64,000 nucleotides of DNA from Owenia fusiformis. Taxonomy: Eukaryota; Annelida; Polychaeta; Sabellida; Oweniidae. How positions within the stretch are numbered: the first letter of the stretch is position 1; every line of letters starts with the position of its first letter. Position numbers and translations under genes: made by a program. The notes under the pieces are model-generated. The model searched no databases. It was given only the letters and a program-made list of their open reading frames with translations, and was not told the origin of the DNA. The DNA lies in NCBI GenBank assembly GCA_903813345.2, contig CAIIXF020000002.1, forward strand, positions 15,138,467 to 15,202,466, written 5' to 3'. Shown piece after piece: positions 13,737 through 54,439 of this stretch.

Positions 13737-13802
13737 ATGAGGGACAATCCGTTGTCCATATGTGAAAGAGAATTTATCCTCGCTGCTGTTGAAATTCAAA
13801 AG
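13737..13802 (+). CDS. EXOSC9: EXOSC9 coding exon 1
   Basis: Encodes 22 residues beginning MRDNPLSICEREF, the typical N-terminus of the family, which fixes the start ATG. It ends AAG|GTACGC, phase 0. The 5' UTR boundary is not resolved. Confidence 0.93.
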
Positions 13803-16800
13803 GTACGCTTTTATTGTTGTTTAAGGTTCAGCTGGAAAGTAACATTTTGGTAAAAAAATGCTATACCTGCACATGTTATTTTCTGGTACAAAATTAAGTA
13901 TGAAGTCATGTGTGTATTTCCTTGCTTTTTTCAGGAAAGTATCATTACACTGTTTACTTTTAGAATATCTGGAAACGGGTCAATGGAAGCGTCTGTGTTG
14001 TCTGGAAACTTTGAAAGAAAATTTGGAAAAATAGAAAGTGTGAAATATCAGAATTTCCTGGAGTTCCCATTGCACCCCTACCAGATATTCTAAAAGAAGA
14101 CAATGTAATGATACTTTTCTGAAAAAAGCAAGGAAATTGACACATGCCTTCATACTTTATTTTGTACCAGAAAATAACATGTGCAGGTATAGCAATTTTT
14201 TACCAAAATGTTACTTTCCAGCTGTACCTTAAAGGGGCAACAAGGACTGTAGAAAGAAAATTAGTTTTTTTGATTTTTTCTGACTCTGACTCTGAGCATA
14301 CAAACCTGAACATGTTATTTTCTGGCACAAAATAAAGTATGAAGGCATGTGTTAATTTCCTTGCTTTTTTCAGGAAGGTATCATTACATAGTCTACTTTT
14401 AGTAAACCTGGAAACAGGTCAATGGTAGAGTTTCACTGCTTCATTTCGTCAGTGGAACGGCAAAAATAAGAAATTGGGAGACCATTGTGCAATAATATAT
14501 GGAAAAGTATATTCATAACGTACATGAATGACATTTGTATATTTCAGATTTTTTAGTTTTTTGTGCAATAAGCCTGTGCCGTCTTGTAATTTGAAGAGTT
14601 TCAGCCATGTTAATCTTATTGAAAATAACATGGCAGAGAATAGTTCAACAAGTTAAACCCAATACCACGGCTTTCATTTATCAATCTGAATGTTCTTGTT
14701 GCCGTGATTGGGTTTAACTTCCGTGCTATGCTTTCATTTGTTGCAAATTCTCTCTATCAGTTATTAAGGATGCAGTACTGGGTCGGTTTTCACATCTGTT
14801 TGCGCAGGTTTGACTTCCGGTTTGAGAAAGCTAGCTCCCAAGAACCTCATTTTCGCATTTAGTCTTATTCAAAAATTATAGTTTATTTCGATAATGGTGT
14901 TTCCAGAAAAGAATTAAATTGCAAACATTTTATCAAGCATATTTTATCCCTTTCACTTTTATGGGAAAACTTGTTCTTGAGTCGCAATTAGTGGATACGA
15001 AAACCAGGGTTCGAAAGGTGCCAGCTCTATTGAAAACTCAAAAAAGTAAAAAGATTCATTTTGGGTAGGTAAAATAATTTTTTATTTTGTAATTACCAGA
15101 TGGTCAATCCTCTTCATATTGCACTTGGACGATGATAACATCATAGTGATACATTGTAACAAATATGAGCAAAATCTAATGTCTGGAACTTTTTCTACAC
15201 TGACCTGGTACTGCATCCTTAATTAAACGCGCATGAAATTACATGCGCTGCCATAGACCACCATTGAATATTTTGCATCAAGGGCCGAATAGGCACGGAA
15301 GTTAAACCTAGGGCGGGCCACAAGATATGTCAGATAGGAAATAAGGCCCAGACTAGGTTTAACGTGTTGAACTAGGCAGAGAAACATCCAAATATAAGAG
15401 GCCACATACTTTATAAGTCAAACTAGAAGCAATCCAAGATATACAAATGTCAATCTCATTCATGTACATTATGAATATACTTTTCCATATATTATTTCAC
15501 AATGGTCTCCCAATTTCTTATTTTTGCCGTTCTACTGACGAAATGAAGCAGTGAAATGGACTCTAGCTCCTGTGTTGTCTGGAAACTTTGAAAGAAAATT
15601 TGGAAAATAGAAAGCGTGAAATATCAGAACTTCCTGGAGTTCCAGATTTACCAGATATACTAAAAGAAGACAATGAGTGACAAATTTAGGGGGAGTGGGC
15701 CACTACTCACACCCCCGCAAAAGAATTGGAAAGTTTGGAAGTTGCATTTGTTGATTTTAAACGCTTCAAAAGTGCCGAGAAATCACCAAGTAGACATAAT
15801 GAAATCATAAAAATTTCAGGAACCCTACCCCAAAAACTAAAGCATTCATTTACTCAAACAAATTCAAAGTGCTCAGAATCAATTAGACAGCATCTTGAAT
15901 TTGTAAAATTTTCCTGTGCTGCCCCCTTGCTCCCCTAAGAATAAAATGATTGAAAAAATCTGAATTTCTAAATTGATTCTATTGATTAAAACACTTGAAA
16001 GTGTCCAGAAATCACTGAATATGATCTTGAACTGGTAAAAGTTCTTGTGTAAACATTTATGTCCTTCTAGCACCCCCTCTCCCTATTCCAATGTTTCTCC
16101 AAATTGCTCATACAATATTAAGTCTAAAAAAACTACAAAAACAATAAAATACTACAAAATAGGCTGAGTGGCCCTAATAAAGGAAGGAACCGACCCCCCT
16201 CTGACTTACGCGATTTGATTTACCCAGCAATAAATTCAAAAAGTGCAAAACATTCTCCAATGTTCGGATAAATTCCGAGATTAATCATTACCATGATGAA
16301 ATTCATTCGAATCGGACCGCCGATCGTATGAATTCACGGCACATGGACTCTGTGCAATCATGCAATGTGAAATGACCATTTCACAAGATGCGGAGCATTG
16401 AGTGTTAATTTTAGGAAACAACGCCTGAAAGGAATGGTCACTTCACATTACAATGCATTCAGTCTTGGGCTTAAATTCTTTTCACAAATTGCAAAATATT
16501 TTCTATAAAATCATCTGAACGATACAAAATTACTAAAAGCACATGTTTTCAATGAAATCTTTTGGATGGGTCAAGCTGGCAAAGTTTCAATTTCAATCTG
16601 TAGAGTCCAGTCATCATCAAAAATCTAAGTGTACTTTACTGCAGTTGAGATTATAGTGATTTTTTAATACAAAATTTTGACATTCGGTCTTTCTGTTTTT
16701 TCAGAGAATTGATGGCAGAGAGCCTTACGACTTAAGAAAGATCAAGATAACATTTGGATTGGACTATGGATGTTGTCATGTTGAACTCGGGAAAACAAGG

Positions 16801-19800
16801 TATGCTAGAATATATTTTATTATTACTGCTCAGTGGTTAAGTCTGGCGGTAGAGAAAAGTAGTCACATGGTCATCAATTCATCTTGTGGAGGTGTTTTAG
16901 AATTCATTAAGTTAATGAGTGAAACAAAATAAAAGTGCAAGGTAAAATGTATGTATCTTATTCATAATTTACAAGCATTAAGGATTGATGCCTAAAATTG
17001 TTTGAGGAAAAACAAAGTTAATTTTGTAAATCTAGAAGTTGTTACGACAATTTTGGAAGTGAAAAATCCAGTTTTGGCCCTTGAATTGGAAAAAGTAACT
17101 GATGATTTAAAACTGATTGTTGGGAGGTTAATGAAATTAATGTAATTGTTCCACAAGTGTTGATTATTTGACAATCATATTTTTCTTCAGGGTTATGGCT
17201 CAGGTGTCCTGTGAGATTGCAGCCCCAAAACAGACACGCCTCAATGAAGGCACCATGTTCATCAATGTAGAACTTTCTCCAATGGCTGCACCACAGTTTG
17301 AAACTAGGTAGGTAATTCATCAAACATAAAATAAGTTTTTCTTTTGCATTTTATGTATAAGGAATGTGACAAAGGTGATAATTTCATAGCTCGACATCCC
17401 TACATATCCTTTGGAACAAATATCTGTGCCCGCAGAAGTATCAGTGTCCCCCTTGTACCTTTTACATAAAAATATAACAACTGTCCATGGATTTTCATGT
17501 ACTGATTTTGCATTATTTTTTGATCGGATCTGACTTAAGATTTGAAATTTGACCTTCATTGACCCTCCCAGGGTCATAAAAAAGTCAAAAATGTCTTTTT
17601 TCAACTTGCTTCAAATTGACCAAATTTTTTTTCAATCAAATTGACCAAATTTTTTTTCAAAATCATTTTCAAGTTATAAGATGTTTTGAGAATCCACCTT
17701 CAATGACATTTTCAGGGTCAAAAAAGGTATTTTTCAACTTGCTTCAAATTGTAATAATAATATTGTGAGCAACTAGGTGGTGACATTTTGTCATGTTAAT
17801 GCCTTGTTCTTCAATAATGTTGACAGATTTTACTCATGTGCATAACTCATTGAATCTCAACACTTCTTGCTATACAGGAGCCAAGACCTGAACACAGAGA
17901 TAACACGCCTCTTAGAGCGTAGCATCAAGAATTCCCGCTGTGTAGACTTAGAGTCACTCTGCATCATGGCAGGAGAGAAGGTAAGTGACATGTTTTGTGG
18001 AAAATTGTTTGAGAAAGTTGGATATCCATTTCACACCATTTCAATACTTATAGGTATTATTGCAAGAATTACTGATATTTTGACATTTATTAGGTTCATG
18101 AAGTGCTGTGCGGGTGGATTGCGCCTGCTGGCATACGAAAATGCACCCTTGTTTTTTAACTTATTTGACATTTCTGTCACTACTTGCACGTTTGATTCAG
18201 TTGAAAACACATGAACTGAGTAGTTTAAGATCCTCCACTTAAAATACACAATTTTATACCTGACAAAATTTGTGGTACTTTTATTTATTTTTAGTAGGAT
18301 TGTCTTTTCATAACTCGATTCCACTATGTTTTGCTCTATCACTTCGTACAGGGTGATATGAGACTCAAGTATTTCAGTGTAAAATATAAAGGTTGTTTGT
18401 ATTTATTTATAGATGGCATAATATTTGTAAGATTATGTAGCACTAAATCTGTTTGATAAGTTAATTCTACCAATTTTAGAGTATGGTTATGAGGTATTTG
18501 TGCAACCTAAATGCTTTGATATTATAGGAAAGTTACAATTGCGATTCATAAATCAACTTTTGCATGTTAAAACACAAACTTCAAATCTGGCAATACTTGG
18601 TGAGTTTGGAAGGTATATTATAAGAATGAAAGTTCAGAAAATAAAATATAGTTGTCGACTGTGCAAATATCAATTAGATCATTTCATGAGAATATCTGGA
18701 TCAACCTTTGAATGCAGTGGGGTGAAATGAATAATCAAATACAAGGTAACAATTATTAGCAAAACCGTTGGAGGAAATATTCAACTGATACTATACAATT
18801 ACTGGATGATCAGGAGCTGGATATGGCAGAATACCTATTCGAGAAAGAAATATTGGGTGAGGCCAATATTTTTTCAAGGATAAGTATTCTGGCCATATCC
18901 AGCTCCTGATCATCCAGTATTTGTTTTATTATGCACCTTCTCAATCAATCTTTTGAATGTGCCAGGATGTACTTACATTTTTAGAACTTTTGATTTTTCT
19001 AAAAACTAATAGCTATACACAGAAAAAGCATTGTCTTGTCCCGTGATTTAATTTACATTTATTTGAGGCATTCTTGCAGAATTATGCGTAATGTTTGAAT
19101 GATAAGGGTAAACGTGTTTGATTAAATACACTTTTTTCTTTTGTTTGCCACAGTTTCTGATGTTAGCTTTTAGTAGAACTCGAGTTATTGAGAAATAAAA
19201 CTCTTAAGAGGGGAATGTTGCAAAAACATTGAAAAAATATAAGTCAGTTGCAAAAAATATTGGTCAGTTTCAAAAAAATATTGGGCAGTTAAAAAAGCCA
19301 GATATGGCCAAATTACCAGCAGCTTAGAACCAATCAGATTTCAGTATCTAGACAAGATGCATAATGAAATTTGATATTTTCGGATTCACATATGGTAAAT
19401 CTAATGATTTTCTTCACATTCTCTGATAATTTTTGCAATTCATTTCCAAATATTTGCTCCCAACTGGCTAAATATTTGGTACAAGGATACTAATGATTTC
19501 ACCCTAATATGCATATTTCTGTTTACTGTATCAATATTTCTGTTTACTGTATTCAAGGTATGGGAGTTGAGAGTTGATGTACATGTGTTGAACCATGAGG
19601 GGAATATTTTGGACTGTGCCAACATTGCTGCTATAGCTGCCCTAGCACACTTCAGGTATGTCCACTATAGATTAACAGTTAAGCAATTAACTCTTGTGTA
19701 GCTGCATTCATAATTGAACATTTTACCTATAAACATTCATAGCTCGAAACCTGTCTAATCCAAACACTGCTTAGACTGGTTAGAGGTTGTCAGTTCACCC

Positions 19801-22800
19801 ACAGATGCTCACCCCTCATGTCCACATCAGCAATGCACTGTATCAGTACTCAGCATGGCAATATACAGCTGGACACATTCAAGGTCTAAGATTTTGATCT
19901 TGTCAAATCATAATAGAGATGTACACATACCATGACAGTGGCATAAACTTAGGGGTTGCATTAACCCTTGAATTATTAAAATAAATAAAAATTTTATTTT
20001 TCTCAAAAAAATTTTACCGTCAGTGTGTAAATTGATGTCACTGAGCATCAGAAACTCCATGAAACTATATGTTTTCTGAAAGCTAGAGTCCAATGGAAAA
20101 GTAAATTAATCTTTTTTTTATGTGTCAACAAATAATTATGTAACATTTTGTAATCACATGTCAACTGCATAAATGGTGTGAACTACCCCCCCCCCCACCT
20201 CATTCACATAGTCACCACTCTGAATTGTCACTTTTACAAGGCATATCACTAATACGCATTGCTCCTCCATCACAAACTCATCAGCATCTATTATATGCCT
20301 TTGAGTGACATATTGGAGTAATAACTGATTAAAATTTTTTTTTTCTTCCTTCTTAAGTTCAAGTTCACATGTTAAAATGAGGCTAAGATTGGTTCTGGTT
20401 GCTAGGGGATTCCCCATTGAACCAGGAAGAGGGCCTCAAAAGCGCAGTTGATAATTTAAGGGTTAAGACATGAATTGATGTATGTCCAACCATGCAGTTG
20501 AGAGTCATTAGGGGTGTGGGATTGTGAATCATTCCAAAACTTACAACATCAACTCCTTGTGTCAATACAGAATACTATGAATTACAATGATAAATCCTGT
20601 TTCTTCTGAATGCATAAATTTTTGATCAGATTTCAGGACAGGATTAAACTTTTATAAAAAATTTGGTAGTTGAAGTACATGTGCTTGTATGTATGAAAAT
20701 ATTGAAATCAGTCAATCAGAAAATAAGCACAAGAATTATGAGTTATATTACAAGAATGTAGCCTTGCCCAAGTCGGTATTTTTTTTACTTATCTGATCTT
20801 GAATTATTACGGCCTTGTACAATCCAATACATCTCCGCTGATATTATTCTAAGTTATTCAGCGGTTTCGAGATTTCCATAATACCTACGCTGTCAGGGGT
20901 ATCGCGAAACCTTATTGATTGACAAGATCGCATAGACATGACGTGTGACTTCAGGCTGATTGACCAATCAAAACGTTATCAGATTGACATGCATAAACAA
21001 AGCAAACTATCCGTCTACGACTTGAAATTCAATGATTCGGCCGAGTGTTTCTTTAGAGATTCAATATAACTAGGATAAATTAAATCATTCGATTCAATGT
21101 TGATTTAAAACTGAATTCGCGATGAAAATGCACGAAGACCTAGCCATGATGTTGTCGATCTGATTCAGCGATTGAATCTCAGCCTAGATGTTTGATCATT
21201 TGAATTCAGCGATCGTTTCAATGTTTCTTGTTGAAATCTTCTCACCTCCGGGTATCCGATCGATGCTCTGGCATCCACTTAACTCTGATTGATATTTATC
21301 TGATAAAATATTTGTATTTTCATGATGAAATCGTGCAAGATTTGTTCGTGAAAAGTCCCGGTGAAAAGTGTACTTGTTTTTGACCCTGCATAATAATGAG
21401 CTAACGCGTCAGGGCTGTCGTTGATTGGTCCAATTTTGACCTGTCATCTCTTGGTTTTTAAGAAATATGGATGTGAAAAAGGTCTTATTTTGGTGACAGT
21501 TGTGGGACTTTTATTCTACTTTATTTCCTCTTACATTTCCTTTTCTCTCTTTCTAGGAGGCCAGATGTCACAGTGTGTGGAGAGGAGATAACTGTGGTAA
21601 GAGACTTAAGTTCCATATACTTATTTAAAATTGTGTTCAAATGTTGACAGTTATGGAAAGCTGTTTGATGAGGCCTATATAGATGTAGAATGTGAAATCA
21701 AATCAGGTTCATAAATAAATAAATTGGACACACAATATCCAATGATATTGTCCAGGCTTTATACTGTTAATGCTCATCTATTTTTCATACAGGAATAATA
21801 TTTAACTAAAGCAGTTTATTACAAATCACTAACATGATGAGGTAAACATGTACAGGGCTTTCAGTAACGCGTCCTTAACATTAGGAGGGGCCAGATTTTG
21901 ATGAAGGGGCTTAAAAAAATTAATGATCCGTCCCTTGGACGCAAAGTCCTGCATTTTCATTAACAAAATTGATAGACTTGGAAAAAGATCTTACCTTCAG
22001 TCTTTTATTTGGTCAAAATTCGCTAAATATACGAAGGACATTATTCTATTTCTAAAAGAAATACAATATTTTCTTTCGAAGTTTCTTTTCTGGAAGCTGA
22101 TATCTGATCTAAATAGTACGAGGCCTGTGATAGGACAATCACTATTTGCTACAATACCAAGCGGTAATCGGTACGAGTCCTATAATTGGCTGTGATTATT
22201 AATCGCACATGCATCTAATAATTTTGACTAATCAAATTGCTGGATTTGTTGCGCATGCGCATAAAACGGAACTAATAAATGGAACGTCACAGAGATTGCG
22301 CCAAGTGCAAGTTGCTTCAAAATACAAAAGAAATGTGAATTCAATGGTTGAATATTAGTTATCTCTTTCAAGTGAAGGTACCTGTATCATTTAGTGACCT
22401 ACTAGATGTTTGGGGGAACTCATTTTTTGAAAATCAATCCGTCCCAGGGACGCACTCTTGTACAAACCTACTGAAAGCACTGATGTATGAACCGTCACAA
22501 AATATAAGTCTCACTATTTTGAATCTATTCATCTTGCAACCAACAGAGCAGTGAGAGGCTAATAAATCTAATGAATTCCCATGATTTGTGGAAAATAGCT
22601 TGGGCATATGGCTCAGACTGATTCAAATGTTTTGATTATAACACATCTGTGTAGTAGACTATGTTTTTATAAAAAATATGTTGTTACTCTAAAAATATAC
22701 TTGTTTTGTTTCATATGTAAATCTTTATCCAGTAAGCATATACGATACAAAACATTTTGAATTAAATCAGAAGATCATGTGATAAAAAAGAAACATAATA

Positions 22801-25800
22801 TGACCTGCATGCCTATTTTAGCCAGAAATCACAACTAGGTGCATTAGTATCCAATTAACTCCTTGCCTCATCATTGCAATTTTTATGACTTATTAGAGAG
22901 CGTGTAGATGCACATTTATGACTTTAAAGTGTTTGTTGCCAATATGTGTTTAAATCTGAAGGGGTATCATGATGTTGGAGCATCACCATTGTCATCTGCA
23001 TTAACAAGGAAAGTTTCAGCTTCTTCTGATATAGGGAAACATTTGCCTTAATTCAGTATCTGTCACCATGGTAACAAATACATACACTGTACACTTGTAA
23101 CTTGTTACTTATTTGTTGCTTTTTTCCAGCATCCTGCTGATGAGAGGGACCCTGTTCCATTGAGCATTCTACACATGCCTCTGTGTGTCACATTTGCCTT
23201 CTTTCATAATGGGTAAGTACATTCTACACATTCCTCTGTGTGTCACATTTGCCTTCTTTCATAATGGGTAAGCACATTCTACACATTCCTCTGTGTGTCA
23301 CATTTGCCTTCTTTCATAATGGGTAACTGCATTCTACACATGGCTCTGTGTGTCACATTTGCCTTCTTTCATAATGGGTAAGTTAATTCTATACATGCCT
23401 CTGTGTGTCACATTTGCCTTCTTTCATAATGGGTAAGTCCATTCTACACATTCCTCTGTGTGTCACATTTGCCTTCTTTCATAATGGGTAAGTACATTCT
23501 ACACATGGCTCTGTGTGTCACATTTGCCTTCTTTCATAATGGGTAAGTACATTCTACACATGGCTCTGTGTGTCACATTTGCCTTCTTTCATAATGGGTA
23601 AGTACATTCTACACATTCCTCTGTGTGTCACATTTGCCTTCTTTCATAATGGGTAAGTACATTCTACACATGCCTCTGTGTGTCACATTTGCCTTCTTTC
23701 ATAATGGGTAAGTACTATTGGTGTCAATTAACCGCTTGAGCATTAACCGGTTAACCGGGGGTTTTTACCGGTTAAAGTCGGTAAACCGGCGGGAAATTTG
23801 AACTGATAATTTCAAATGAAATCTTCATTTTCGATCTTGAAAGTTGAAAAAAATTGGAAAAATGATATATCGGCGTTTATTTTTTACGTTCGTCAAGCTT
23901 TACTCTATTCTATGCAAGTAAGAGCGGGAAAGCAATGTGGCAGGGATTAAAGTTGCTGATTGGGTGTTTGTAAGGAATTATCGGACCTATCACATGTATG
24001 AGTAGCTCACATGAAACTGACGCTTGAAAAACAAACAGATTAAAATGCAAAGTAAGCGCGGGAAAGCAATGTGGCAGGGATGTTGCTGATTGGATGTTTG
24101 TAAGGAGTTATGGGACTTATGACATGTATGAGTAGCTTACGTGAAACTGACACCATAAAACCAAATGGATTAGCATGCAAAATAAGCGCGGGAAATAACA
24201 GAATTATACACGGTCAACTAACCACCCATAAAAACACAGACCGGTCAAGGCATTATCGGCGGTTAACCGGTTAACCGGTTAATACTTGACACCTCTAGTA
24301 AGTACATTTTACACATGCCTCTGTGTGTCACATTTGCCTTCTTTCATAATGGGTAAGTACATTCTACACATGCCCCTGTGTGTCACATTTGCCTTCTTTC
24401 ATAATGGGTAAGTACATTCTACACATTCCTCTGTGTGTCACATTTGCCTTCTTTCATAATGGGTAAGTACATTCTACACATGCCTCTGTGTGTCACATTT
24501 GCCTTCTTTCATAATGGGTAAGTACATTCTACACATGCCTCTGTGTGTCACATTTGCCTTCTTTCATAATGGGTAAGTACATTCTACACAAGGTCAAAAA
24601 GGTATTTTTTATCTTGTTTCATCTAGGTGGTGACATTCTGTCATGTTAATGCCTTGTTGTGTTTTGTCATTGTAGAAAATGTCTGATACTCGATCCAAAT
24701 GAAAGAGAAGAGCGTGTCATGGATGGGAAGATGGTGGTCTCTATGAACAAACATAGGGAGATATGTACATTACAGATATCTGGTCAGATGCTCTTAGAGA
24801 AAGACCAGGTTTGTTATAACATATCAATGGCAGGTCAAAGCCATCCTCCTAGGCTATTTCAACTCCCTAAGTTTTAACTCTTCCCTTGTCAAGTCCCAAT
24901 TTGTGCAATACTAGCAATGCGCACATAGGTAGTGACATCTATTAATCCCATTCAAACATCAACTTTAATGAAGGTATTCTTGTAAAAGATGCCACCTATG
25001 ACCATGATATAGTATGGGAGTAATGATTTGTCAAGTGTACAACTTTAGGACAACTGAATTATTTCATGTCACACTTCTTAGTTTACACGATTTGTTGTAT
25101 TTGGATGAATCTATTGAATTACCCCTGTAATGGAATTTCTAATAGTTTTTTTGTCATACTTAGTTACATATTGTTTTTGTAGATCTTCCGTTGTACCAAC
25201 ATGGCCGTGAAGAAGGTGATAGTGCTCACTGAACTGATACAACTGTCTTTAGAGAATGACTCTAATGCTAGGTATGATATCGTCTTGCATTTTGTCCCCC
25301 CCCCCCACTAGTACACAATCCATGAAGTAGATGCGAGCTCGAGAGACTTAATGCAAGTATTTCACCCTCTTGATCTTACCCAATGAAAAGCTGAGACTGG
25401 TAGGGGTAGTATGAAAACATTGTATAAAACTACCTTATATTAGCTGTCAATTAAGGGGGTAGAGGGTAAAATACTTAAACATTTAAAACATTTGAGTTTA
25501 GAGACTTTGAATATTTTCAGCAAACTAATAAAAGCTATGAATTTCAATAACTGTAGGGCTGCTGGGGAAAAGTTTGGATTTGCAGAGTCTGTAGAAACCA
25601 ACGAGATTACAACTGAATACAAAGAAGAGTCAGAGGTTGACATGTCAGACATTGATGACCAGGTTGTTATGGCAACACAAAACGGCAACAGTGAAGATGG
25701 CAGTATAGAGGAGCTTGAGTTAGATATGGAGACTAAAGTTACAATTATGGTAATGAATTTAAATGTGAATGAATTTAATTTAACATTATTTTTTTTAAGT

Positions 25801-28800
25801 TAATCATTGTGTACAGATGACTAAGTGTGACAGATGCCTAAATGAGACAGATGACTAAGTGTGACAGTGACTAAGTGTGACAGATCTAAGTGTGACAGAT
25901 GACTAAATGTGACATGTGACTGGGCAGACCTTCACTCAATAGAGGGCTTTCTATATACATGGATAAAAGACGACAGTAGTAGTTTTGGTCTGGGTGGTAT
26001 GCCACTTATTTAAATTGAGAAACTGAAAAAACTAATTTAATAAATATTTCTAGTTGGATTTATGGAAAATCTTGCAATTGTGTTCATTAAATCATTGGAC
26101 ATTGATCAAAGGAAATAACAGAATATTAAAGTTCTTCCAGTAAAATGTATAAAGTAAATCATACACAGTGTATATATTATCAAATATGAAAAAAATCTTA
26201 ACAGGTAAATATGCAAATATCCTAAAATCTAAATAAAAATGAGACCTTGAAAGCTGAACAGCAAAGTTTTAAGTTAGCCTCAGTCTATTGATCTTTGCTA
26301 GGCAGCATTTTTTCAAAAGAAAAAAAGATGGATCTAGCCAATATATCTGATTCTTTAATTTAGCAAAAGATGGTGGGGTCTATTGGGAATGACTTTTGAA
26401 ATGACACTACCTACCAGATACCAGAGAATGTAATGTTGTAAAGGTATGTCAAAGATAATGTGGAAATCACTCAAGTGATGTCCTCGAACATCTATATATA
26501 TAATAATAATTATCATGTTAATTTTAGTTTGAGGGAACAGGTATGATAGGACAGGGTGGTGCTAATACATGGGACATGGATGAAGATATGGAATCAGACC
26601 TCACTGAACACAAGCAAAAGCCACAAGCAAACTCACGCTCAGCTACTATAGCTAAGCACATAGGTACATTTCCCTTTATTACTTTGGAAACTACTAAGCC
26701 ACAAGCAAACTCACGCTCAGCTACTATAGCTAAACACATAGGTACACTTCCTTTTATTACTTTGGAAACTACTAAGCCACTAGCAAACTCACGCTCAGCT
26801 ACTATAGCTAAGCACATAGGTACAATTCCCTTTATTGTTTTGGAAACTACAAAGCCACAAGCAAACTCACGCTCAGCTACTATAGCTAAGCACATAGGTA
26901 CAATTCCCTTTATTGTTTTGGAAACTACAAAGCCACAAGCAAACTCACGCTCAGCTACTATAGCTAAGCACATAGGTACAATTCCCTCTATTGTTTTGGA
27001 AACTACAAAGCCACAAGCAAACTCACGCTCAGCTACTATAGCTAAGCACATAGGTACAATTCCCTTTATTGTTTTGGAAACTACAAAGCCACGAGCAATC
27101 TCACGCTCAGCTTCTATAGCTAAACACATAGGTACACTTCCCTTTATTAGTTTGGAAACTACAGGGTAGTCCAAAAATGAGTATTCCTTTATATTCTAGG
27201 TCTATTTTATACCTGTACATGTATATGATTATCACTTGATTTCCAATCACTGAATGAAAACAATATTGATAAAACTACACTATATTGCTTCCACTATATG
27301 GGCAATGGCCTTTATAGATAAACATTCACAATACCCCTAACTACTTGGATTATGTGGTAGTAGTAGTAGAAAAGTAGCTAAAAATTATCTGCCATTTTTA
27401 TTATGAACTCGTGTGCTCATTGCTTTAGGGTGTGCAGTCGATACTTAACCACTTTAAATGGCCGCAACCATCTTTCCTGCCTGGTCACAGTGTTATGACA
27501 GACTTAGTTGTCTTTCAAATCTCTCTTGCATAATTTTGAAAATACCCTAAAAGCCTGTTCCTTTTTATCACACTTATTTCCCGGACAGAGTGCTTTCATT
27601 AATGTGTTTATTTCACATATTTAAGGAGGAGACTTGAGCGGTGAGAGTGAAGAAGAAGATACAGTTATGTTACAACAAGAAGATATAGGACTTCAATCTA
27701 AACCAATTATCAGGTATTGTTATTGTAACATTCAAACATTATGGGATTTATTGTAACATTCTGATTTTTGTATAATCAGGCACATTAAAACATTCTCAAG
27801 TACATTGTAACATTCTTACACTCATTATCATGTAAATCGTGACATTCTCACATTATCATGTACATTATAACATTCTCACATTATCATGTACATCATAACA
27901 TTCTCACATTATCATGTACATCGTAACATTCTCACATTATCATGTACATTGTAACATTCTCACATTATCATGTACATCATAACATTCTCACATAGTCATG
28001 TACATCGTAACATTCTCACATTATCATGTACATCATAACATTCTCACATTATCATGTACATCATAACATTCTCACATAATCATGTACATCATAACATTCT
28101 CACATTATCATGTCAAATCATAACATTCTCACATAGTCATGTACATCGTAACATTCTCACATTATCATGTACATCATAACATTCTCACATAGTCATGTAC
28201 ATCATAACATTCTCACATTATCATGTACATTGTAACATTCTCACATTATCATGTACATCATAACATTCTCACATAATCATGTACATCATAACATTCTTAC
28301 ATTATCATGTACATCGTAACATTCTCACATTATCATGTACATCATAACATTCTCACATTATCATGTACATCATAACATTCTCACATTATCATGTACATCA
28401 TAACATTCTCACATTATCATGTACATCATAACATTCTCACATTATCATGTACATCATAACATTCTCACATTATCATGTACATCATAACATTCTCACATTA
28501 TCATGTACATCATAACATTCTCACATTATCATGTACATCATAACATTCTCACATTATCATGTACATCATAACATTCTCACATTATCATGTACATCATAAC
28601 ATTCTCACATTATCATGTACATCGTAACATTCTCACATTATCATGTACATCATAACATTCTCACATTATCATGTACACCGTAACATTCTCACATTATCAT
28701 GTACATCGTAACATTCTCACATTATCATGTACATCATAACATTCTCACATTATCATGTACATCGTAACATTCTCACATTATCATGTACATCGTAACATTC

Positions 28801-29498
28801 TCACATTATCATGTACATCGTAACATTCTCACATTATCATGTACATCGTAACATTCTCACATTATCATGTACATCGTAACATTCTCACATTATCATGTAC
28901 ATCATAACATTCTCACATTATCATGTACATCGTAACATTCTCACATTATCATGTACATCATAACATTCTCACATTATCATGTACATCGTAACATTCTCAC
29001 ATTATCATGTACATCATAACATTCTCACATTATCATGTACATCGTAACATTCTCACATTATCATGTACATCGTAACATTCTCACATTATCATGTACATCA
29101 TAACATTCTCACATTATCATGTACATCATAACATTCTCACATTATCATGTACATCGTAACATTCTCACATTATCATGTACACCGTAACATTCTCACATTA
29201 TCATGTACATCATAACATTCTCACATTATCATGTACATCGTAATATTTTCACAATCATTTACATTGTAACATTCGTACATTATCATAATCATGTACGTAC
29301 ATTGTAACTTTTTCACATTATCATATACATTGTAATATACAATCATTTACATTGTAACATTTTCACATTATCATGTAGATCCTCATTATATATCTATATA
29401 TTTGCAGTAGTGAAGAGCCAACAGGAAATGAAATAGACCTGACTGCAGCACTCGCTAAACCCAGGGGAAAGAAGAAAAAATCAAAACATAAACATTGA
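13737..29498 (+). CDS. EXOSC9: EXOSC9 (exosome component 9, Rrp45), 13 coding exons, complete
   Basis: Spliced gene; exons 13737-13802, 16705-16799, 17191-17307, 17878-17980, 19558-19655, 21557-21596, 23130-23212, 24676-24808, 25183-25271, 25557-25749, 26528-26663 (shortest form), 27626-27713 and 29408-29498. All junctions are GT/AG and keep frame, giving 443 aa, close to the roughly 440 aa of animal EXOSC9. Family landmarks seen: RIDGRE (23-28), DYGCC (42-46), VMAQVSCE after residue 54, VWELRVDVH (from 128), HFRRPDV, DERDPVPLSI, DPNEREERVMDG (207-218), MNKHREIC (224-231), EKFGFAES (279-286), then an acidic patch SGESEEED (389-396) and a lysine-rich tail (434-443) that may serve nuclear import. 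Known role: a catalytically inactive RNase PH-fold subunit of the nine-subunit exosome ring, pairing with EXOSC4, in nuclear and cytoplasmic RNA decay. Odd: two 5' splice sites lie in tandem-repeat arrays. Confidence 0.96.
13824..14237. mobile_element. Foldback element in EXOSC9 intron 1, TTAA ends
   Basis: TTAAGGTTCAGCTGGAAAG is mirrored by CTTTCCAGCTGTACCTTAA, with arms of about 150 bp. It begins 21 bp after the intron 1 donor. Confidence 0.7.
14238..15680. mobile_element. Composite of nested and inverted repeats in EXOSC9 intron 1
   Basis: 14450-14640 is inverted near 15370-15550. The stretch TGTTGTCTGGAAACTTTG and its 100-bp context at 13996-14105 recur in the same orientation at about 15570-15668. 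Inside sits a TTAA-bounded MITE (14764-15222). No coding potential. Confidence 0.6.
14764..15222. mobile_element. 459-bp TTAA-flanked MITE
   Basis: TTAAGGATGCAGTACTGGGT is mirrored by GACCTGGTACTGCATCCTTAA-type sequence. TTAA lies at both borders. Confidence 0.65.
15681..16704. other. Rest of EXOSC9 intron 1
   Basis: No gene. A weak inverted repeat with AATGTGAAATGACCATT (16364) and AATGGTCACTTCACATT (16433) is visible. Confidence 0.5.
16705..16799 (+). CDS. EXOSC9: EXOSC9 coding exon 2
   Basis: Acceptor TTTTTTCAG, then RIDGREPYDLRKIKI and GLDYGCCHVELGKT, the first strands of RNase PH domain 1. Donor AG|GTATGC, phase 2. Confidence 0.95.
17191..17307 (+). CDS. EXOSC9: EXOSC9 coding exon 3
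   Basis: Acceptor TTTTCTTCAG. Encodes VMAQVSCEIAAPKQTR and the NVELSPMAAPQFE stretch conserved in Rrp45. Donor AG|GTAGGT, phase 2. Confidence 0.95.
17773..17808 (+). repeat. 36-bp segment shared by introns 3 and 7, copy 1
   Basis: CTAGGTGGTGACATT, then TGTCATGTTAATGCC, 70 bp before the exon 4 acceptor. It recurs with one mismatch at 24623-24658, just before the exon 8 acceptor. Similarity extends upstream (GGTCAAAAAAGGTATTTTT). Confidence 0.8.
17878..17980 (+). CDS. EXOSC9: EXOSC9 coding exon 4
   Basis: Acceptor TATACAG. Encodes a helical stretch ending VDLESLCIMAGEK, matching the family's TESLC-AGEK motif. Donor AAG|GTAAGT, phase 0. Confidence 0.95.
18801..18918. repeat. Long hairpin in EXOSC9 intron 4
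   Basis: ACTGGATGATCAGGAGCTGG is perfectly mirrored by CCAGCTCCTGATCATCCAGT, with the match continuing inward. Nearby TTATTATGCACCTT (about 18927) and AAGATGCATAATGA (about 19356) may be ends of a related MITE. Confidence 0.7.
19558..19655 (+). CDS. EXOSC9: EXOSC9 coding exon 5
   Basis: Acceptor ends CAAG, less usual than CAG. Encodes VWELRVDVHVLNHEGN and IAAIAALAHF, the core of RNase PH domain 1. Donor CAG|GTATGT, phase 2. Confidence 0.95.
19656..21556. other. EXOSC9 intron 5
   Basis: 1.9-kb intron. Contains a C run at about 20187 and a CpG-richer block at about 20810-21440 that may be an old transposon. No clear ends or coding content seen. Confidence 0.5.
21557..21596 (+). CDS. EXOSC9: EXOSC9 coding exon 6 (40 bp)
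   Basis: Very short exon encoding RPDVTVCGEEITV between a strong CT-rich acceptor (TTTCTAG) and donor GTG|GTAAGA. It fits exactly between the HFR of exon 5 and the HPADERDP of exon 7. Confidence 0.92.
21597..23129. other. EXOSC9 intron 6
   Basis: No gene. The motif CCGTCCCTTGGACGC (21927) and a similar CCGTCCCAGGGACGC (22439) suggest repeat debris. No boundaries defined. Confidence 0.45.
23130..23212 (+). CDS. EXOSC9: EXOSC9 coding exon 7 (donor repeated downstream)
   Basis: Acceptor TTTTTTCCAG. Encodes HPADERDPVPLSILHMPLCV and TFAFFHNG. The first donor AATGG|GTAAGT (phase 2) joins in frame to KCLILDPNERE of exon 8. The last 48 bp of this exon plus the donor are the first unit of the 55-bp tandem array that follows. 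Confidence 0.93.
23165..24590 (+). repeat. 55-bp array repeating exon 7 end plus 5' splice site
   Basis: Each unit holds CTCTGTGTGTCACATTTGCC, then TTCTTTCATAATGG and GTAAGT. Donors start at 23213 (true exon end), 23268, 23323, 23378, 23433, 23488, 23543, 23598, 23653, 23708, 24353, 24408, 24463, 24518 and 24573, with one more at 24298 created by a hAT insertion. Most keep GTAAGT; 23268 reads GTAAGC and 23323 GTAACT. The unit is not a multiple of three, and an in-frame TAA follows the exon at once if the first donor is skipped. Confidence 0.95.
23716..24297. mobile_element. 582-bp non-autonomous hAT element inserted on a splice donor
   Basis: Ends TATTGGTGTCAA and TTGACACCTCTA with AACCGGTTAACCGG subterminal motifs. 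The 8-bp target duplication GTAAGTAC (23708-23715 and 24298-24305) is itself the donor sequence of the 55-bp unit. The interior is a roughly 130-bp direct duplication (about 23918-24050 and 24050-24190). No transposase. Confidence 0.85.
24623..24658 (+). repeat. 36-bp segment shared by introns 3 and 7, copy 2
   Basis: Ends 17 bp before the exon 8 acceptor and begins right after the 55-bp array. TTAAT within it could act as a branch point. Confidence 0.8.
24676..24808 (+). CDS. EXOSC9: EXOSC9 coding exon 8
   Basis: Acceptor TCATTGTAG. Encodes KCLILDPNEREERVMDG and MNKHREICTLQISG, strongly conserved in RNase PH domain 2. Donor CAG|GTTTGT, phase 0. Confidence 0.95.
25183..25271 (+). CDS. EXOSC9: EXOSC9 coding exon 9
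   Basis: Acceptor TTTTTGTAG. Encodes IFRCTNMAVKKV and LTELIQLSLENDSNA, the final helix of the RNase PH fold. Donor AG|GTATGA, phase 2. Confidence 0.94.
25557..25749 (+). CDS. EXOSC9: EXOSC9 coding exon 10
   Basis: Encodes GEKFGFAES, an invariant Rrp45 landmark, then an acidic linker. The acceptor chosen (CTGTAG at 25556) keeps the family's spacing but has a weak pyrimidine tract. A stronger TATTTTCAG lies 36 bp upstream in the same frame. Donor ATG|GTAATG, phase 0. Confidence 0.9.
25801..25922. repeat. Degenerate ~17-bp repeat after exon 10
   Basis: Several irregular copies of GATGACTAAGTGTGACA in EXOSC9 intron 10. Confidence 0.7.
26528..26663 (+). CDS. EXOSC9: EXOSC9 coding exon 11, variable 3' end (to 27131)
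   Basis: Acceptor ATTTTAG. Encodes FEGTGMIGQGGANTWDMDED, matching the family's conserved G-x-G-x-x-x-W-x-D-x-x-D patch, then enters a 26-residue tandem repeat. Equivalent phase-1 donors (ATAG|GTAC) follow residue AKHI in each of seven repeats, at 26664, 26742, 26820, 26898, 26976, 27054 and 27132. Each joins in frame to exon 12. The first gives the family's normal length (443 aa) and the last gives 599 aa. Confidence 0.8.
26621..27166 (+). repeat. 78-bp in-frame coding array, 7 units, each with a donor
   Basis: The unit encodes ANSRSATIAKHIGT plus a PFI-LETTKPQ stretch, 26 codons. All seven units stay open. Each has ATAG|GTAC after AKHI at the same phase. Copies differ mainly in the bases just after the donor. 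Confidence 0.93.
27626..27713 (+). CDS. EXOSC9: EXOSC9 coding exon 12
   Basis: Encodes GGDLSGESEEEDTVML, the acidic patch near the EXOSC9 C-terminus. The acceptor is a NAGNAG site (AAGGAG), so one glycine may be optional. Donor CAG|GTATTG, phase 2; a 28-bp minisatellite starts within about 15 bp of it. Confidence 0.88.
27726..29370. repeat. 28-bp minisatellite filling EXOSC9 intron 12
   Basis: More than 50 units of CATAACATTCTCACATTATC plus ATGTACAT, with C-A-T-A / C-G-T-A as the main variant. It occupies nearly the whole intron between exons 12 and 13. Confidence 0.95.
29408..29498 (+). CDS. EXOSC9: EXOSC9 coding exon 13, C-terminus
   Basis: Acceptor ATTTGCAG. Encodes SSEEPTGNEIDLTAALAKP, then a basic GKKKKSKHKH tail and TGA. 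The lysine-rich ending matches the family. Confidence 0.9.
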
Positions 29499-43100: not shown

Positions 43101-46100
43101 AGAGGTGCAGTAACTATGAAGGAAAGAACATGCATGCTGATCTACATTGCTTCCATATTGGTATGACTGGTGGAACTGTTTTGCAAATAATCTGCTGCCT
43201 ATTCAAGGTATTAATACAAACATATATTTCAAAACTTGAATTACATTAATTTCTCTTTAAGTAAAAGATTTTGTTTAGCCAAAACTGTCAGTCTTGAAAA
43301 AAAAGTTGCTCAAAATCAGTCAAGACCATGGTTTTCTCATATTCAAAACATCACAAAGGGTTTCAAGTTGGCACAAGTCTTTCAAAAGCTCAAATGGATC
43401 CAACATCCAGTAAGTTATATGTAAGGGAAAGAATATTAAGAAAATCAAAGCCACAAACTGGGATTTACTTACCTCCTAAAGTAACATTTCCATGTAGAAA
43501 TCTACCCTGGTATATCAACCGAAGAATATTAGTTGACGGGAGATGCTCCCCTTCCCATTCTGAAAGCAGGAAAACAACATCATTAAAAATCACTTATTCA
43601 TATAACCTGAGGCCATGATCCATGTTATTACCATAGATGAAGCAATATATATCAATGACACAATTCTACTTTTTGAAAAGGATATGTATTGCTGCCACAT
43701 GGCATTTCAAGGCCACTTTGGGATTTTCCAGTTTCACTATTACTATATAGTGTATACCTTAAATGAAGTCTTTAGATCTCAACCGCTGTATGTACTTACT
43801 TCACTCTTATTAAGGGAGTTGCATATTTGGAGGGGGGGGGGTGTGGGTGGGGGTTTGGAGTAAAAAAGCTAAAGACTAGGATTTTCCTTATATTAATTAC
43901 TTTTTTATTATAAGTTAAAAAAAATATAAGGCCAATTTTAACATGTTTATTAGCAACTGCATTTACAACTTAAATGATAGAAACAAACAAAATATAATAT
44001 AGCAGTTTGATCGCAATTCATTCTATTCTTATTCTACAATGAAGACAAGCTCTTTAAAACGAAGAGGTCAACTCAACCTGGAGATTAGCTGTCATTTGGC
44101 AGTGGGCTGATGATAGAATAAGAGCACTTCTTTGCATAAAGAAGATGCCTCTTCGAGTATATTACAAACAAATTCTATCACAGAAGACTCACTTTAATTC
44201 AGATGAGAGGCTTAACCCTTTGTAAAAGTAATCAAATTTATCTCTCTATATACAAATGATAAACATCTTAATTGGTCATTTTCATTTGAGCAGAGGTCCT
44301 CTTCCCAAAATATACCAAAATAATCAAAAAGTCAAATCAGATGAATGAACATCGCCAAATAGATCAACGCCATCTATATCACGATGATCCTGAGAGTAGG
44401 AAATACAATAAAGGCATTAACATGCAAAATGTTACCACATGCCATTCATAACAGATGCCAACTTCCAAAACGCTGAACACCAGCAGCCGTCCATAAAAAG
44501 AGTTGGAGACTATAAGAATATGTCACAAGTTGTGGTGGTGACATAAAAACTATAAGAGGTACAGCTTCATGCAATTGAGTCACTGATACCTACAGGAAAT
44601 TAAAGTCATCGTAGCAAATAAACTCATATTAATCAGTAAAAAGCATGCTATTATATAATCTGCATTCACTTACAATTATAAGAAACCATACAGGAAATCA
44701 CATTTTACTTTGATGTGCATGTTTTAATTGGTAACAGATCAGATCAGGTTATAGTTCATTTTACTACTTGTAGGGAAGGCAATTAAACTGTGACGTAATA
44801 TTGTAACGCAAAACCAAGCCATTTGCTTTCAATGAACATCTGAAATAATTTTTTAAAATACCAATCAATTAAAATACTAGACTGATTCTAAGAACTCAAA
44901 AGGTGTCCTGAAAGGTTAAGAATTAGATGAAGGTAGTTCTACTAATAATGTTGATTAAAAGTCAATTGACATTTTGCGATCAGAATTTGAGCATTTATTA
45001 TTATAGATATTGTTGCCATGTAGTCCTTCTTATTGGTATGATGTCACATAAAAATAATATCAAACATGATGGAGAGACAGATTGACAGATCCGTGGCAGT
45101 TTTGAGCTGAAACAAACAATTGTTTCTTTTATGCAAACTATGGGTCAGCTTTTTACCAGGTATGTTGATTTGATTAATCATGAGTATCCTTACGTAGATG
45201 AAGTCTTGATGAAATTTCTACAAAACATCAATACCTAAAAGCACCCCCCATATTTTCAGAATGGGGGGGGGGGCTAAACTGCTATCTTAATCATGTCAGA
45301 AAGATCTTACACTTGGCATTAGAATGAATGTTGATCTAGTCAAATCGAATACGTTCATGAAAAATTAATCAATATATTGTGAATACATATGAAATGGGTG
45401 CCAAAACTAATTCCAAATTCCTGATAAATTAATGGCAATAAAATCTATTGATACAAAAAATTCAAAATTCCTAGAATTCTATGCATCAATGAAGACAACA
45501 GATTCCTTAATAAACTTGGGTGAAAACAGCGTACTATACTTTACAAGTCATTACAAAACAAGACATGTAAATAATTCAGCAAAAGTCTGCAATAAACTAT
45601 GGTAACTGTTTTATTAGAACTCAATTATCCTAAATATATCGATCTGATTCAGAATAATTATAAAATAAGATAGGTGTTTTGCATTCTATGTATAACCAGA
45701 ACAACGGCAACGCCAAAGCGTAGCGAATCCCATCGAACAGAGATAGCTGGTATTTTTACAAACGAATAGCAAATATCATAAAACAACACACCAGAAAGGC
45801 CACCATTTTCAAAATGGTTGCTCACTTGCCAAGGTGTCATCAGAAGAAATAATATGCTTTTAAGTAGCCACCTCTAAAATTTTTGAAAAATCGCACACGT
45901 ACTTGTAAAATAACACACATAAAAATGGTGGCCATTTTTCAAAATGGCCGACTACTCCCCAAAGTTTTATTAGACAATGTGCCATGCTTACAGTATTCAC
46001 ATATCAAATATGAACAAAATCGCTCCACTACTTTTCGAGTTCTAGTAAAATACGTTAAAATGGTGGCCATTTTTCAAATTTTTTTTCAAAATGGCCGCCT

Positions 46101-49057
46101 TCTCACAAAAATGTCACAGGACAGTGTGCCATGCTTATAGTATTCACATACCAAATATGAACAAAATCGCTCCACTACTTTTCGAGTTATAGTAAAATAC
46201 GTTAAAATGGGGGCCATTTTTCAAAATTTTTTTCAAAATGGCCGCCTTCTCACAAAAATGTCATAGGACAGTGTGCCATGCTTATAGTATTCACATACCA
46301 AATATGAACAAAATCGCTCCACTACTTTTCGAGTTATAGTAAAATACGTTAAAATGGCGGCCATTTTTCAAAATGGCCGCCTTCTACCAAAAGTGTCTTT
46401 AGACAGTGTGCAATGCTTATAGTATTCACATACCAAATATGAACAAAATTGCTCCACTATTTTTGGAGTTACAGCAAAAATCGTAAAGTGACAAGTAAAG
46501 GCCGCCATTTTTCAAGATGGCTGCCATGCGCTTCTTTAATATCTACATTTGTAGCATTATTAATGTCCTTTATAATTTTTTTACATTTAAAACATATTGC
46601 TATTACAGTTTTACATATTGCACCTAAATTACTGTAAAATCGGCACTAAAATGGCCGCCATTTTGAAATGAGCGGCCATTTTGAAAATCGGCTTTCGAGC
46701 AGAACTTCTACCCCCATAGGGTATATGTGTACAAAATATGAACAAAATCAGGCCAACGGTATTTGAGTTATTGCCCGGACGGACGGACGGACGGACGGAC
46801 GTACGTACGGACGGACGGACGGACGTACGTACGGACGGACGGACGGACGGACGTACGGACGGACGGACGGACGTACGTACGGACGGACGGACGGAGGCGT
46901 TCCCTATATCCCTCCGAACTTCGTTCGATGGGATAATAAAAATACATGCTACATCAAACATGCTGGGGAGGATTTGGCAATACATGGACCATTCAACATC
47001 AATTTATTACATAACTGACAACACCATTATGATTATTGCAGTGACATTTATATTGGTTCCATTCCACGCTTACCCTGCTTACTTTTAGAGCCACTTTCTG
47101 ATATTACAGTCATGGCTGCGTTAATATATAAGATTTTAATCAGCAAATTACAGAATGATCATTAAATTATTTAGATATATTACATTGTACACAAGGCAAG
47201 TATCTAACCTAAAGTATAAGTGAGACAATTGATATTCTTAGATGGTATCCAACCATTAACAGTTATAGAAGAACAAAGTTACTTTCTTAAGGGGAATAGG
47301 TAAATGATGATGATTTTGTTACTGGAAATGTTGAATTTACAGGAAAACAGTATGAATGGAAAATCAATATTTTATTATGAGAGAGTGGGGGAATAAAATC
47401 ATCATAAAATGAACCCATTTTTCTACAACTGTTATTCGAAAACCTTCTCTTAGAGCCTTCAGTTGAGGCAAATCTACCATTAAAACACCAACCTTCTCTT
47501 AGAGCCTTCAGTTGAGGCAAATCTACCATTAAAACACCAACCTTCTCTTAGAGCCTTCAGTTGAGGCAAATCTACCATAAAAACACCAACCTTCTCTTAG
47601 AGCCTTCAGTTGAGGCAAATCTACCATTAAAACACCAACCTTCTCTTAGAGCCTTCAGTTGAGGCAAATCTACCATTAAAACACCAACCTTCTCTTAGAG
47701 CCTTCAGTTGAGGCAAATCTACCATTAAAACACCAACCTTCTCTTAGAGCCTTAAGTTGAGGCAAATCTACCATTAAAACACCAACCTTCTCTTAGAGCC
47801 TTCAGTTGAGGCAAATCTACCATTAAAACACTAACCATCTCTTAGAGCCTTCAGTTGTGGCAAATCTACCCCTTAAAACACCAACCTTCTCTTAGAGCCT
47901 TCAGTTGAGGCAAATCTACCCCTTAAAACACCAACCTTCTCTTAGAGCCTTCAGTTGAGGCAAATCTACCATTAAAACACCAACCTTCTCTTAGAGCCTT
48001 CAGTTGAGGCAAATCTACCATTAAAACACCAACCTTCTCTTAGAGCCTTCAGTTGAGGCAAATCTACCATTAAAACACCAACCTTCTCTTAGAACCTTCG
48101 GTTGAGGCAAATCTACCATTAAAACACCAACCATCTCTAAGAGCCTTCAGTTGTGGCAAATCTACCCCTTAAAACACCAACCTTCTCTTAGAGCTTTCAG
48201 TTGAGGCGAATCTACCATTAAAACACCAACCTTCTCTTAGAGCCTTCAGTTGAGGCAAATCTACCATTAAAACACCAACCTTCTCTTAGAGCCTTCAGTT
48301 GAGGCAAATCTACCATTAAAACACCAACCTTCTCTTAGAGCCTTCAGTTGAGGCAAATCTACTATTAAAACACCAACCTTCTCTTAGAGCCTTCAGTTGA
48401 GGCAAATCTACCATTAAAACACCAACCTTCTCTTAGAGCCTTCAGTTGAGGCAAATATACCATTAAAACACCAACCTTCTCTTAGAGCCTTCAGTTGAGG
48501 CAAATCTACCTTTAAAACACCAACCTTCTCTTAGAGCCTTCAGTTGAGGCAAATCTACCATTTAAACACCAACCTTCTCTTAGAGCCTTCAGTTGAGGCA
48601 AATCTACCATTAAAACACCAACCTTCTCTTAGAGCCTTCAGCTGAGGCAAATTTACCATTAAAACACCAACCTTCTCTTAGAGCCTTCAGTTGAGGCAAA
48701 TCTACCATTAAAACACCAACCTTTTCTTTAGAGCTTCAGTTGAGGCAAATGTACCATTAAAACCATTAGTAAAATATACAACCTCTTTACTAATCATCGT
48801 GCTTGGTACTGAAGCACTTAATTGAGATTTTGAATACTACAAAGCCCATACTTTTAAAACGAGCAAGTGTTCATGGCTTAACCATTCTCCATTTTTTCAA
48901 CTTTAAATCTAGCTTTACGAGTAAAATATCAAGCAAATAACAACCTACCTTCTGGCCAGTTGTCGTATACATGCTGCGTTATATCTGCCGCAGAATCTGT
49001 TATTGCAAACAAAAATTCTTTTGTTTTTCCCGTTACTAGAATTAGTCTTAGGTTTAT
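37089..49057 (-). CDS. UBL3: UBL3 (membrane-anchored ubiquitin-fold protein), partial: N-terminal exon not found
   Basis: Four exons read 49057-48949, 43559-43473, 39954-39877 and 37150-37089, with GT/AG borders and consistent phases (0,1,1,1). Together they encode 111 residues against about 117 for the whole animal protein, so only about the first 9 residues are missing. Landmarks seen: INLRLILVTGKTKEFLF, HVYDNWPEEWE, NILRLIYQGRFLHGNVTLG, LGKTTVMHLVARENLPEPN and a C-terminal CCTIL. The last four residues, CTIL, form a CaaX box whose final Leu favours geranylgeranylation. Known role: a ubiquitin-fold protein anchored to membranes by its lipidated C-terminus, implicated in protein sorting to extracellular vesicles. 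The first exon should lie on the - strand above 49057; I saw no convincing ATG exon up to 64000, so intron 1 is probably longer than 15 kb. Confidence 0.94.
38238..39025. mobile_element. GGAC-tail repeat family, divergent copy in UBL3 intron
   Basis: Begins ATAACGGCAACTCCGCGGAG and AATCCCAACGAAC, ends with GGAC/TGAC tracts (38915-38980), then CGAACTTCGTTCGTTGGGAT. The start and end are partly complementary (CCCAACGAAC/GTTCGTTGGG). Confidence 0.65.
39877..39954 (-). CDS. UBL3: UBL3 coding exon 4
   Basis: - strand acceptor ATTTCCAG. Encodes LQLPLGKTTVMHLVARENLP and EPNNQ, the last strand of the ubiquitin fold. Donor CAAG|GTAAGT. Confidence 0.95.
40105..41000. mobile_element. GGACC/TCCTGTGCTCACACAG repeat family, copy B
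   Basis: GTCCTGTGCTCACACAG at the left is partly mirrored by CATAGTGTGAGCC at the right, preceded by a GGAC-rich tract (40915-40965). Its inner part matches 10450-10740. Confidence 0.6.
41001..43472. other. UBL3 intron, mostly featureless
   Basis: Apart from the 24-bp repeat at 41866, I see no gene or delimited element. Confidence 0.5.
41866..41962. repeat. 24-bp repeat, 4 units, UBL3 intron
   Basis: GGGCTTCATTGCTATCTCAG plus CTCT. Confidence 0.9.
43473..43559 (-). CDS. UBL3: UBL3 coding exon 3
   Basis: - strand acceptor CTTTCAG. Encodes WEGEHLPSTNILRLIYQGRF and LHGNVTLG, conserved across animal UBL3. Donor GGAG|GTAAGT. Confidence 0.95.
43560..45694. other. UBL3 intron, featureless
   Basis: AT-rich with G runs at about 43831 and 45265. 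No gene or delimited element seen. Confidence 0.5.
45695..46937. mobile_element. GGAC-tail repeat family, copy 2 in UBL3 intron
   Basis: Starts ACAACGGCAACGCC and AATCCCATCGAAC, has three to four 135-bp internal units, a long GGAC/GTAC tract (46776-46895), and ends GTTCGATGGGATAAT, complementary to the start. Confidence 0.75.
47441..48766. repeat. 49-bp minisatellite, about 27 units, near UBL3 exon 2 donor
   Basis: Unit ACCTTCTCTTAGAGCCTTCA plus GTTGAGGCAAATCTACC. It lies 180 bp inside the intron after exon 2 on the transcribed strand. Confidence 0.95.
48949..49057 (-). CDS. UBL3: UBL3 coding exon 2
   Basis: - strand acceptor TTTTCAG, then INLRLILVTGKTKEFLF and QHVYDNWPE, donor AAG|GTAGGT. 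This is the N-terminal half of the ubiquitin fold. A 49-bp minisatellite begins about 180 bp into the following intron. Confidence 0.95.
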
Positions 49058-54374: not shown

Positions 54375-54439
54375 GATGTTTATCGTACAATGTCTTGTTA
54401 TGAACTGACTTCTCTAATTAAACACAACGTATATATAAA

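Follow-up and report, generated by a model that had tools for sequence, protein, structure and literature searches.

Tandem repeats over one, and very likely two, 5′ splice sites in the EXOSC9 gene of Owenia fusiformis

The stretch of DNA that we analysed, hereafter the window, comprises 64,000 nucleotides of the annelid Owenia fusiformis (assembly GCA_903813345.2, contig CAIIXF020000002.1, positions 15,138,467 to 15,202,466) and contains, on the plus strand at 13737–29498 (window positions, as throughout), an orthologue of EXOSC9/RRP45. An earlier note on this DNA had already named the gene as EXOSC9, and the assignment is confirmed by the alignment of residues 1–364 of the predicted protein with human EXOSC9/RRP45 (6h25_A), with an E value of 1.6e-129, and by the presence of both the RNase_PH and RNase_PH_C Pfam domains. 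The gene model consists of 13 coding exons which, when joined, give an open frame of 443 amino acids (aa) from ATG to TGA. Exons 1–6 lie at 13737–13802, 16705–16799, 17191–17307, 17878–17980, 19558–19655 and 21557–21596, followed by exon 7, of 83 nt, at 23130–23212, and by exons 8–10 at 24676–24808, 25183–25271 and 25557–25749. The end of exon 11 (26528–26663), as well as exons 12 (27626–27713) and 13 (29408–29498), is placed by the open frame and splice sites alone. Introns 1–6 measure 2902, 391, 570, 1577, 1901 and 1533 nt and introns 7–12 measure 1463, 374, 285, 778, 962 and 1694 nt, so that all 12 exceed the line of 250 nt drawn in PMC9225289, the shortest being 285 nt. The 3′ end of intron 7 (24590–24675) shares a common interspersed repeat with intron 3 (17713–17808), with 39 nt at 95% identity, and this repeat is also found at 44401–44438 and in several places approx. 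0.5–1.2 kb before the window start.

Exon 7 ends in 48 nt (23165–23212) that form the exonic part of the first unit of a tandem array (array 1), which runs over the exon 7 donor from 23165 to 24590, and both Tandem Repeats Finder (TRF) and the copy spacing bear out the 55-bp array described there previously. TRF reports it in two halves (55 bp × 10.0 at 23165–23715 with 95% matches, and 55 bp × 5.3 at 24298–24590 with 97% matches), and in total it consists of 15 complete 55-bp units and an 11-nt stub. Each unit is made of the last 48 nt of exon 7 and 7 nt of intron (…AATGG|GTAAGTA); units 1–10 occupy 23165–23714 and units 11–15 with the stub (CATTCTACACA) occupy 24305–24590, all on the plus strand. 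The array had been described as having a strict 55-bp period and 15 donors, which stands for the 15 units at their 55-nt steps; there is, however, a single step of 645 (55 + 590), and a target duplication supplies a 16th donor. The 16 donor GTs are thus found at 23213+55i (i=0–9), at 24298 and at 24353+55i (i=0–4). As the earlier note had said, the donors are near-identical, with GT in all 15 units, GTAAGT in 13 of them (the exceptions being GTAAGC in unit 2 and GTAACT in unit 3) and GTAAGTA in 11. One stray 17-nt match in the second array 1 repeat family (D2) lies 151 nt upstream. A search of the assembly with an 80-nt unit query gave 15 matches, all at the EXOSC9 locus, with the best 2 candidates scored; as evidence that the unit is confined to this locus, the result is weak.

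The position of the exon 7 border within this array is supported by comparison with the human orthologue. The exon 7/8 junction (23212/24676) falls inside the alignment of the joined frame with human RRP45, which crosses it without a gap (…VTFAFFHNG|KCLILDPNEREERVMDG…), and a border elsewhere is rejected on that ground. Array 1 therefore fits the structural definition of a mirage, i.e. a repeat whose unit spans a real exon–intron boundary and carries splice signals. Conservation of the unit's exonic segment (…ILHMPLCVTFAFFHNG) in human RRP45 shows exon 7 to be older than the array, which supports the view that the exon came first and that the minisatellite grew from it; the proposal that a minisatellite had here captured an exon border is supported by the same conservation. 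Variation among the units is confined to nine of the 55 columns and leaves a 36-column stretch invariant (P 0.0005 by column shuffle, with all 15 units). The same test, with the units above its cut given in brackets, returned 0.56 for the 56-bp array of the window (12 units), 1.0 for the 28-bp array (51 of approx. 53), 0.15 for the 49-bp array (23 of approx. 27), 0.02 for the 69-bp array (17 of approx. 21) and 0.72 for the 30-bp array (40 units in the window), the 37-bp array being without variation; for the second EXOSC9 array described below it gave 0.08 when two of the seven units were dropped by the cut and 0.98 with all seven. The clustering of variation in array 1 is only a hint, because the columns of an array are not independent events.

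The 645-nt step in array 1 is due to a non-autonomous hAT-like element of 582 bp (23716–24297; ends TATTGGTGTCAA and TTGACACCTCTA), which is inserted at the donor of unit 10, cuts the array into ten and five units and, together with an 8-bp duplication, makes up the 590-bp interruption. The duplicated target site GTAAGTAC is found at 23708–23715 and again, on the plus strand, at 24298–24305. A second copy of the element lies approx. 9.0–8.3 kb before the window start, where the ends coincide with those of the first and are flanked by an 8-bp duplication of their own (TTGGAAAC). Two copies with exact common ends and 8-bp target duplications agree with the hAT type, and we take the end sequences and these duplications to point to a non-autonomous hAT element. 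Because the element inserted on a donor, the target duplication copied that donor and raised the count from 15 to 16, the additional site (CTA|GTAAGT) being poor in context. Neither this transposon nor a second array at exon 11 appeared in the earlier note.

To read the coding consequence of each array 1 donor, all 16 were spliced in silico to the common acceptor of intron 7 (ttgtcattgtag, 24664–24675), after which exon 8 starts at 24676. The full-length protein is obtained from one of the 16, the first (23213), whereas all 15 others run directly after …FAFFHNG into the TAA within GGGTAA and stop after residue 201. The statement that only the first donor yields the normal protein thus proved correct.

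The second array (array 2) consists of seven 78-bp units at 26617–27163 on the plus strand, each comprising the last 47 nt of exon 11 and 31 nt of intron, with donors at 26664+78i (ATAG|GTACA). All seven are in phase with exon 12 and give proteins of 443, 469, 495, 521, 547, 573 and 599 residues. AG|GT is present in all seven units, and unit-to-unit splicing at this motif would likewise be frame-neutral. Within the array there are eight GTs in phase with exon 12, namely the seven unit donors and a poor TTA|GTTTGG at 27150 in the last unit, and three more lie upstream in exon 11, at 26541, 26556 and 26559. The similarity to human RRP45 ends at approximately residue 364, shortly 5′ of the array, and the first GT to follow belongs to the unit 1 donor; because of this, the exon 11 border very likely lies inside array 2. 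One gene accordingly holds one frame-breaking and one frame-neutral array.

We consider it probable that both arrays are mirage-type minisatellites that grew by tandem duplication and that exon 7 is spliced at 23213. An exon end together with its 5′ splice site would have been tandemly duplicated, and the array would then have grown by ordinary minisatellite turnover. Because exon 7 lies between two long introns (1533 nt for intron 6 and 1463 nt for intron 7), it would be expected to be recognized across itself, i.e. by exon definition, in which case the donor closest to the upstream acceptor, the one that gives the 83-nt exon, would win and the remaining copies would leave as intron. In a study of human splicing (PMC9225289), the upstream of two near-equal donors tends to be chosen between long introns and the downstream one between short introns, and in minigenes carrying a pair of identical CAG/guaagu donors at a distance of 52 nt the upstream site was used exclusively; it is because of this long-intron rule that 23213 should win. 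A slip to a later array 1 donor would lead to the stop after residue 201 and to mRNA decay. The choice within array 2 would not be policed by frame, and any donor or unit-to-unit splice would add or remove blocks of 26 residues. While array 1 was small, intron 7 would have been in the short range, unless other sequence was present there, and growth past approx. 250 nt may have made it safer.

Several points weigh against this reading. In the human data, approx. 60% of events favoured the downstream donor before strength matching, and after matching the preference for the upstream donor was also approx. 60%, hence not absolute (PMC9225289). Under intron definition the donor furthest downstream is preferred (Reed and Maniatis, cited in PMC9225289), and this mode of recognition would be possible at array 1, because intron 7 would shrink to 103 nt with the final donor and to less than 250 nt with each of the final three. 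For array 2, the repeated exonic part is not aligned to human RRP45, so that any of its donors may be ancestral; array 2 very likely has the structure that defines a mirage, but is for this reason placed there less firmly than array 1. In addition, a good-looking in-phase donor, CAG|GTATGA at 26541, would give an exon 11 of 13 nt; an exon ending at 26540 would be compatible with the frame and is opposed only by the loss of human similarity.

The strength of the array 1 donors was compared as the energy of their pairing with U1, which is −11.7 kcal/mol for donors 1, 6–10 and 12–16, −9.2, −6.2, −10.3 and −10.3 kcal/mol for donors 2–5 respectively, and −7.0 kcal/mol for donor 11, the target-duplication copy. 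Local sequence had been said to be unable to discriminate between the donors, and this claim does not hold strictly, as decoys 2–5 pair less well with U1 and as the donors differ in their distance to both acceptors, which in the human minigenes was decisive (PMC9225289). Among the 14 unit decoys, of which ten keep GTAAGTA intact, the weakest four are precisely those closest to the true donor (1 in 1001); with the target-duplication donor as a fifth weak decoy the same rank test gives 0.0037. This test was chosen post hoc, with the data already seen. With unit 1, whose sequence is the consensus, as the reference for private variants, seven of the nine fall in units 2–5 and two in units 6–15 (binomial 0.002), and all five changes at donor positions +5 to +7 are within units 2–5; of the non-donor variants, each of the two groups of units has two, and donor and non-donor variants do not differ significantly in this respect (Fisher 0.17). 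Decoys 2–5 would give exons of 138, 193, 248 and 303 nt, and the ten further unit decoys, in which the donor is unchanged, exons of at least 358 nt. Exons of 358 nt or more exceed the usual reach of exon definition. In frame-neutral array 2 the same measure shows no weakening, the donor energy being −5.5 in all seven units; position +6 differs among them, but lies outside this measure.

Selection could have produced this pattern by weakening only those decoys that were able to compete with the true donor, and, if so, the reach of exon definition would be written into the genome's own sequence. We regard such a disarmament of decoys as quite unlikely. The last five donors, which are closest to the acceptor, are unaltered, and this counts against it. 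In other minisatellites mutation is known to act more strongly at one of the two ends, and such end-biased mutation would give the same pattern as selection.

An alternative to splicing at 23213 with all other copies discarded is that array 1 acts as a regulatory poison switch, in which later donors are used, or units retained, in a constant fraction of transcripts, so that the level of EXOSC9 is lowered. That all 15 alternative donors reach the same stop and that ten of the 14 unit decoys have an unchanged GTAAGTA would suit such a device, but the stop follows from GGGTAA alone, which reduces 15 equal outcomes to one fact, and amphioxus mirages are described as not giving rise to aberrant mRNA (PMC3902484); we consider it very unlikely. 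For array 2 the competing view is that it is a coding repeat, with an exon 11 that spans several units and a protein that carries 26-residue repeats. Although the frame is open through all seven units and each unit donor matches the phase of exon 12, the opposite strand is likewise open across the array, and a short open unit is not rare by chance. Moreover, the exonic part varies in five columns (1, 9, 15, 29 and 40), with amino acid replacements at three of them (Q by L or R, N by I and T by S) and silent changes at the other two, which, in these tiny numbers, gives no sign of purifying selection, and a coding role for the repeat is in our view unlikely. An array inflated or invented by the assembler is barely credible: a single assembly was examined, but the variant pattern among units is mixed, array 1 harbours a transposon flanked by a clean 8-bp duplication, every block is shorter than 600 bp and 12 contigs of 31.9–62.2 Mb hold 95.8% of the assembly (498.26 Mb in 525 contigs).

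A different matter is whether minisatellites at this locus are drawn to exon borders, or whether two arrays came to lie on exon ends without bias in a stretch that is rich in such repeats; the latter view competes with a capture bias alone and leaves the structure of the arrays as described. The minisatellite density of the window is far above that of 22 other stretches of the same assembly, which were of 10 kb each and hand-picked at round coordinates. Counting TRF rows of at least 90% identity and at least 4.9 copies, with the two halves of array 1 taken separately, 104 kb of context contain 11 such rows, every one with its start inside the 64-kb window, and the 220 kb of the other stretches hold only two, in keeping with chance overlap. 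When founding units were placed in the gene at random, however, at least two donor captures occurred in 0.3% (for the three high-identity arrays of the gene) or 0.5% (for five arrays) of trials, and at least two captures of a donor or acceptor in 1.2% and 1.8% respectively, in tests that were post hoc, the arrays having already been seen. The evidence for a bias towards capture of exon borders is suggestive, and chance overlap is a serious possibility from which we lean slightly away.

The kind of repeat is not new. Mirages were described first for the Adh3 gene of amphioxus and later for globins, with haplotype length variation and reverse transcription PCR that suggests regular splicing (PMC3087553), and were also noted for troponin C and PGBD5 (PMC3902484). 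These amphioxus mirages (Adh3, troponin C, the globins BflGb6 and BflGb9, and PGBD5) are likewise tandem repeats over exon–intron borders and have been proposed as a source of new introns (PMC3087553, PMC3902484). EXOSC9 differs from them in carrying two arrays, each on a 5′ splice site, of which one breaks the frame and the other is neutral to it, and in that array 1 contains a transposon that copied a donor; RNA data exist for the amphioxus genes, whereas the EXOSC9 arrays are known from genomic sequence alone. The Rogers model, as reported in PMC3087553, regards tandem duplication of an AGGT segment as raw material for introns, as seen in the EXOSC9 arrays, but these lengthen existing introns and no new intron has been demonstrated. 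The human minigenes of PMC9225289 resemble EXOSC9 in having identical strong donors approx. 52–55 nt apart and long flanking introns, and differ in having two donors in an engineered gene rather than 16 in a natural one. The dual-specific splice sites of UBC (PMC10809524) resemble array 2 in the register of AG|GT and in the possible in-frame loss of units, but there the units are the protein itself, whereas the EXOSC9 units after the first are presumably intronic. Among the results listed by our search of one open-access library, which was directed at minisatellites, mirages, splice-donor competition and intron gain as well as at Owenia, there was no report of border repeats in EXOSC9 or in any annelid; intronic minisatellites are reported for earthworm metallothionein. 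What is probably new is the occurrence of two border arrays in one gene, outside lancelets.

The case is more informative than first noted on account of array 2, the inserted transposon and the distribution of the weak decoys. Donor choice among identical sites has been studied mostly in engineered genes. EXOSC9 offers a natural series of 16 donors, mostly at 55-nt steps, whose errors are readable by frame, and beside it a series of seven donors whose errors are silent. The gene further suggests that minisatellites across exon borders exist beyond the lancelets, in which a role in the gain of introns was proposed for them.

The window as a whole (1–64000) is dense in homogeneous minisatellites, with arrays (unit in bp × copies) of 69 × 21, 28 × 53, 56 × 12, 45 × 21, 49 × 27, 37 × 5 and 30 × 57 in addition to others. 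Two were considered as further border arrays and rejected: the 28-bp array lies inside intron 12, and the 49-bp array (47441–48763) lies approx. 190 nt past a minus-strand exon (48949–49057), within the following intron. This exon belongs to a ubiquitin-like gene (Pfam Rad60-SLD_2), which we take to be probably UBL3. Inspection by eye of the frames that flank the 69-, 56-, 45-, 37- and 30-bp arrays, made without a homology search, recognized no coding border, and border arrays may still be present among them. The unit of the 30-bp × 57 array, which extends from 62786 to approx. 64502, holds the donor-like motif GAGTAAGT, and no adjoining exon was recognized by eye. GTAAGT occurs in the units of three of 13 array rows, two of them the halves of array 1, against 0.37 expected, numbers that are too few to argue from. 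On the minus strand, at 52848–54413, an open frame of 521 aa shows a P-loop (GPSGCGKTT) and a C2H2-like start, and in our view resembles packaging ATPases such as those found in large DNA transposons or in related viruses. Finally, a minus-strand open frame rich in Thr and Pro contains a 36-bp × 7 array (L013 2772–3014), which is perhaps a coding repeat.
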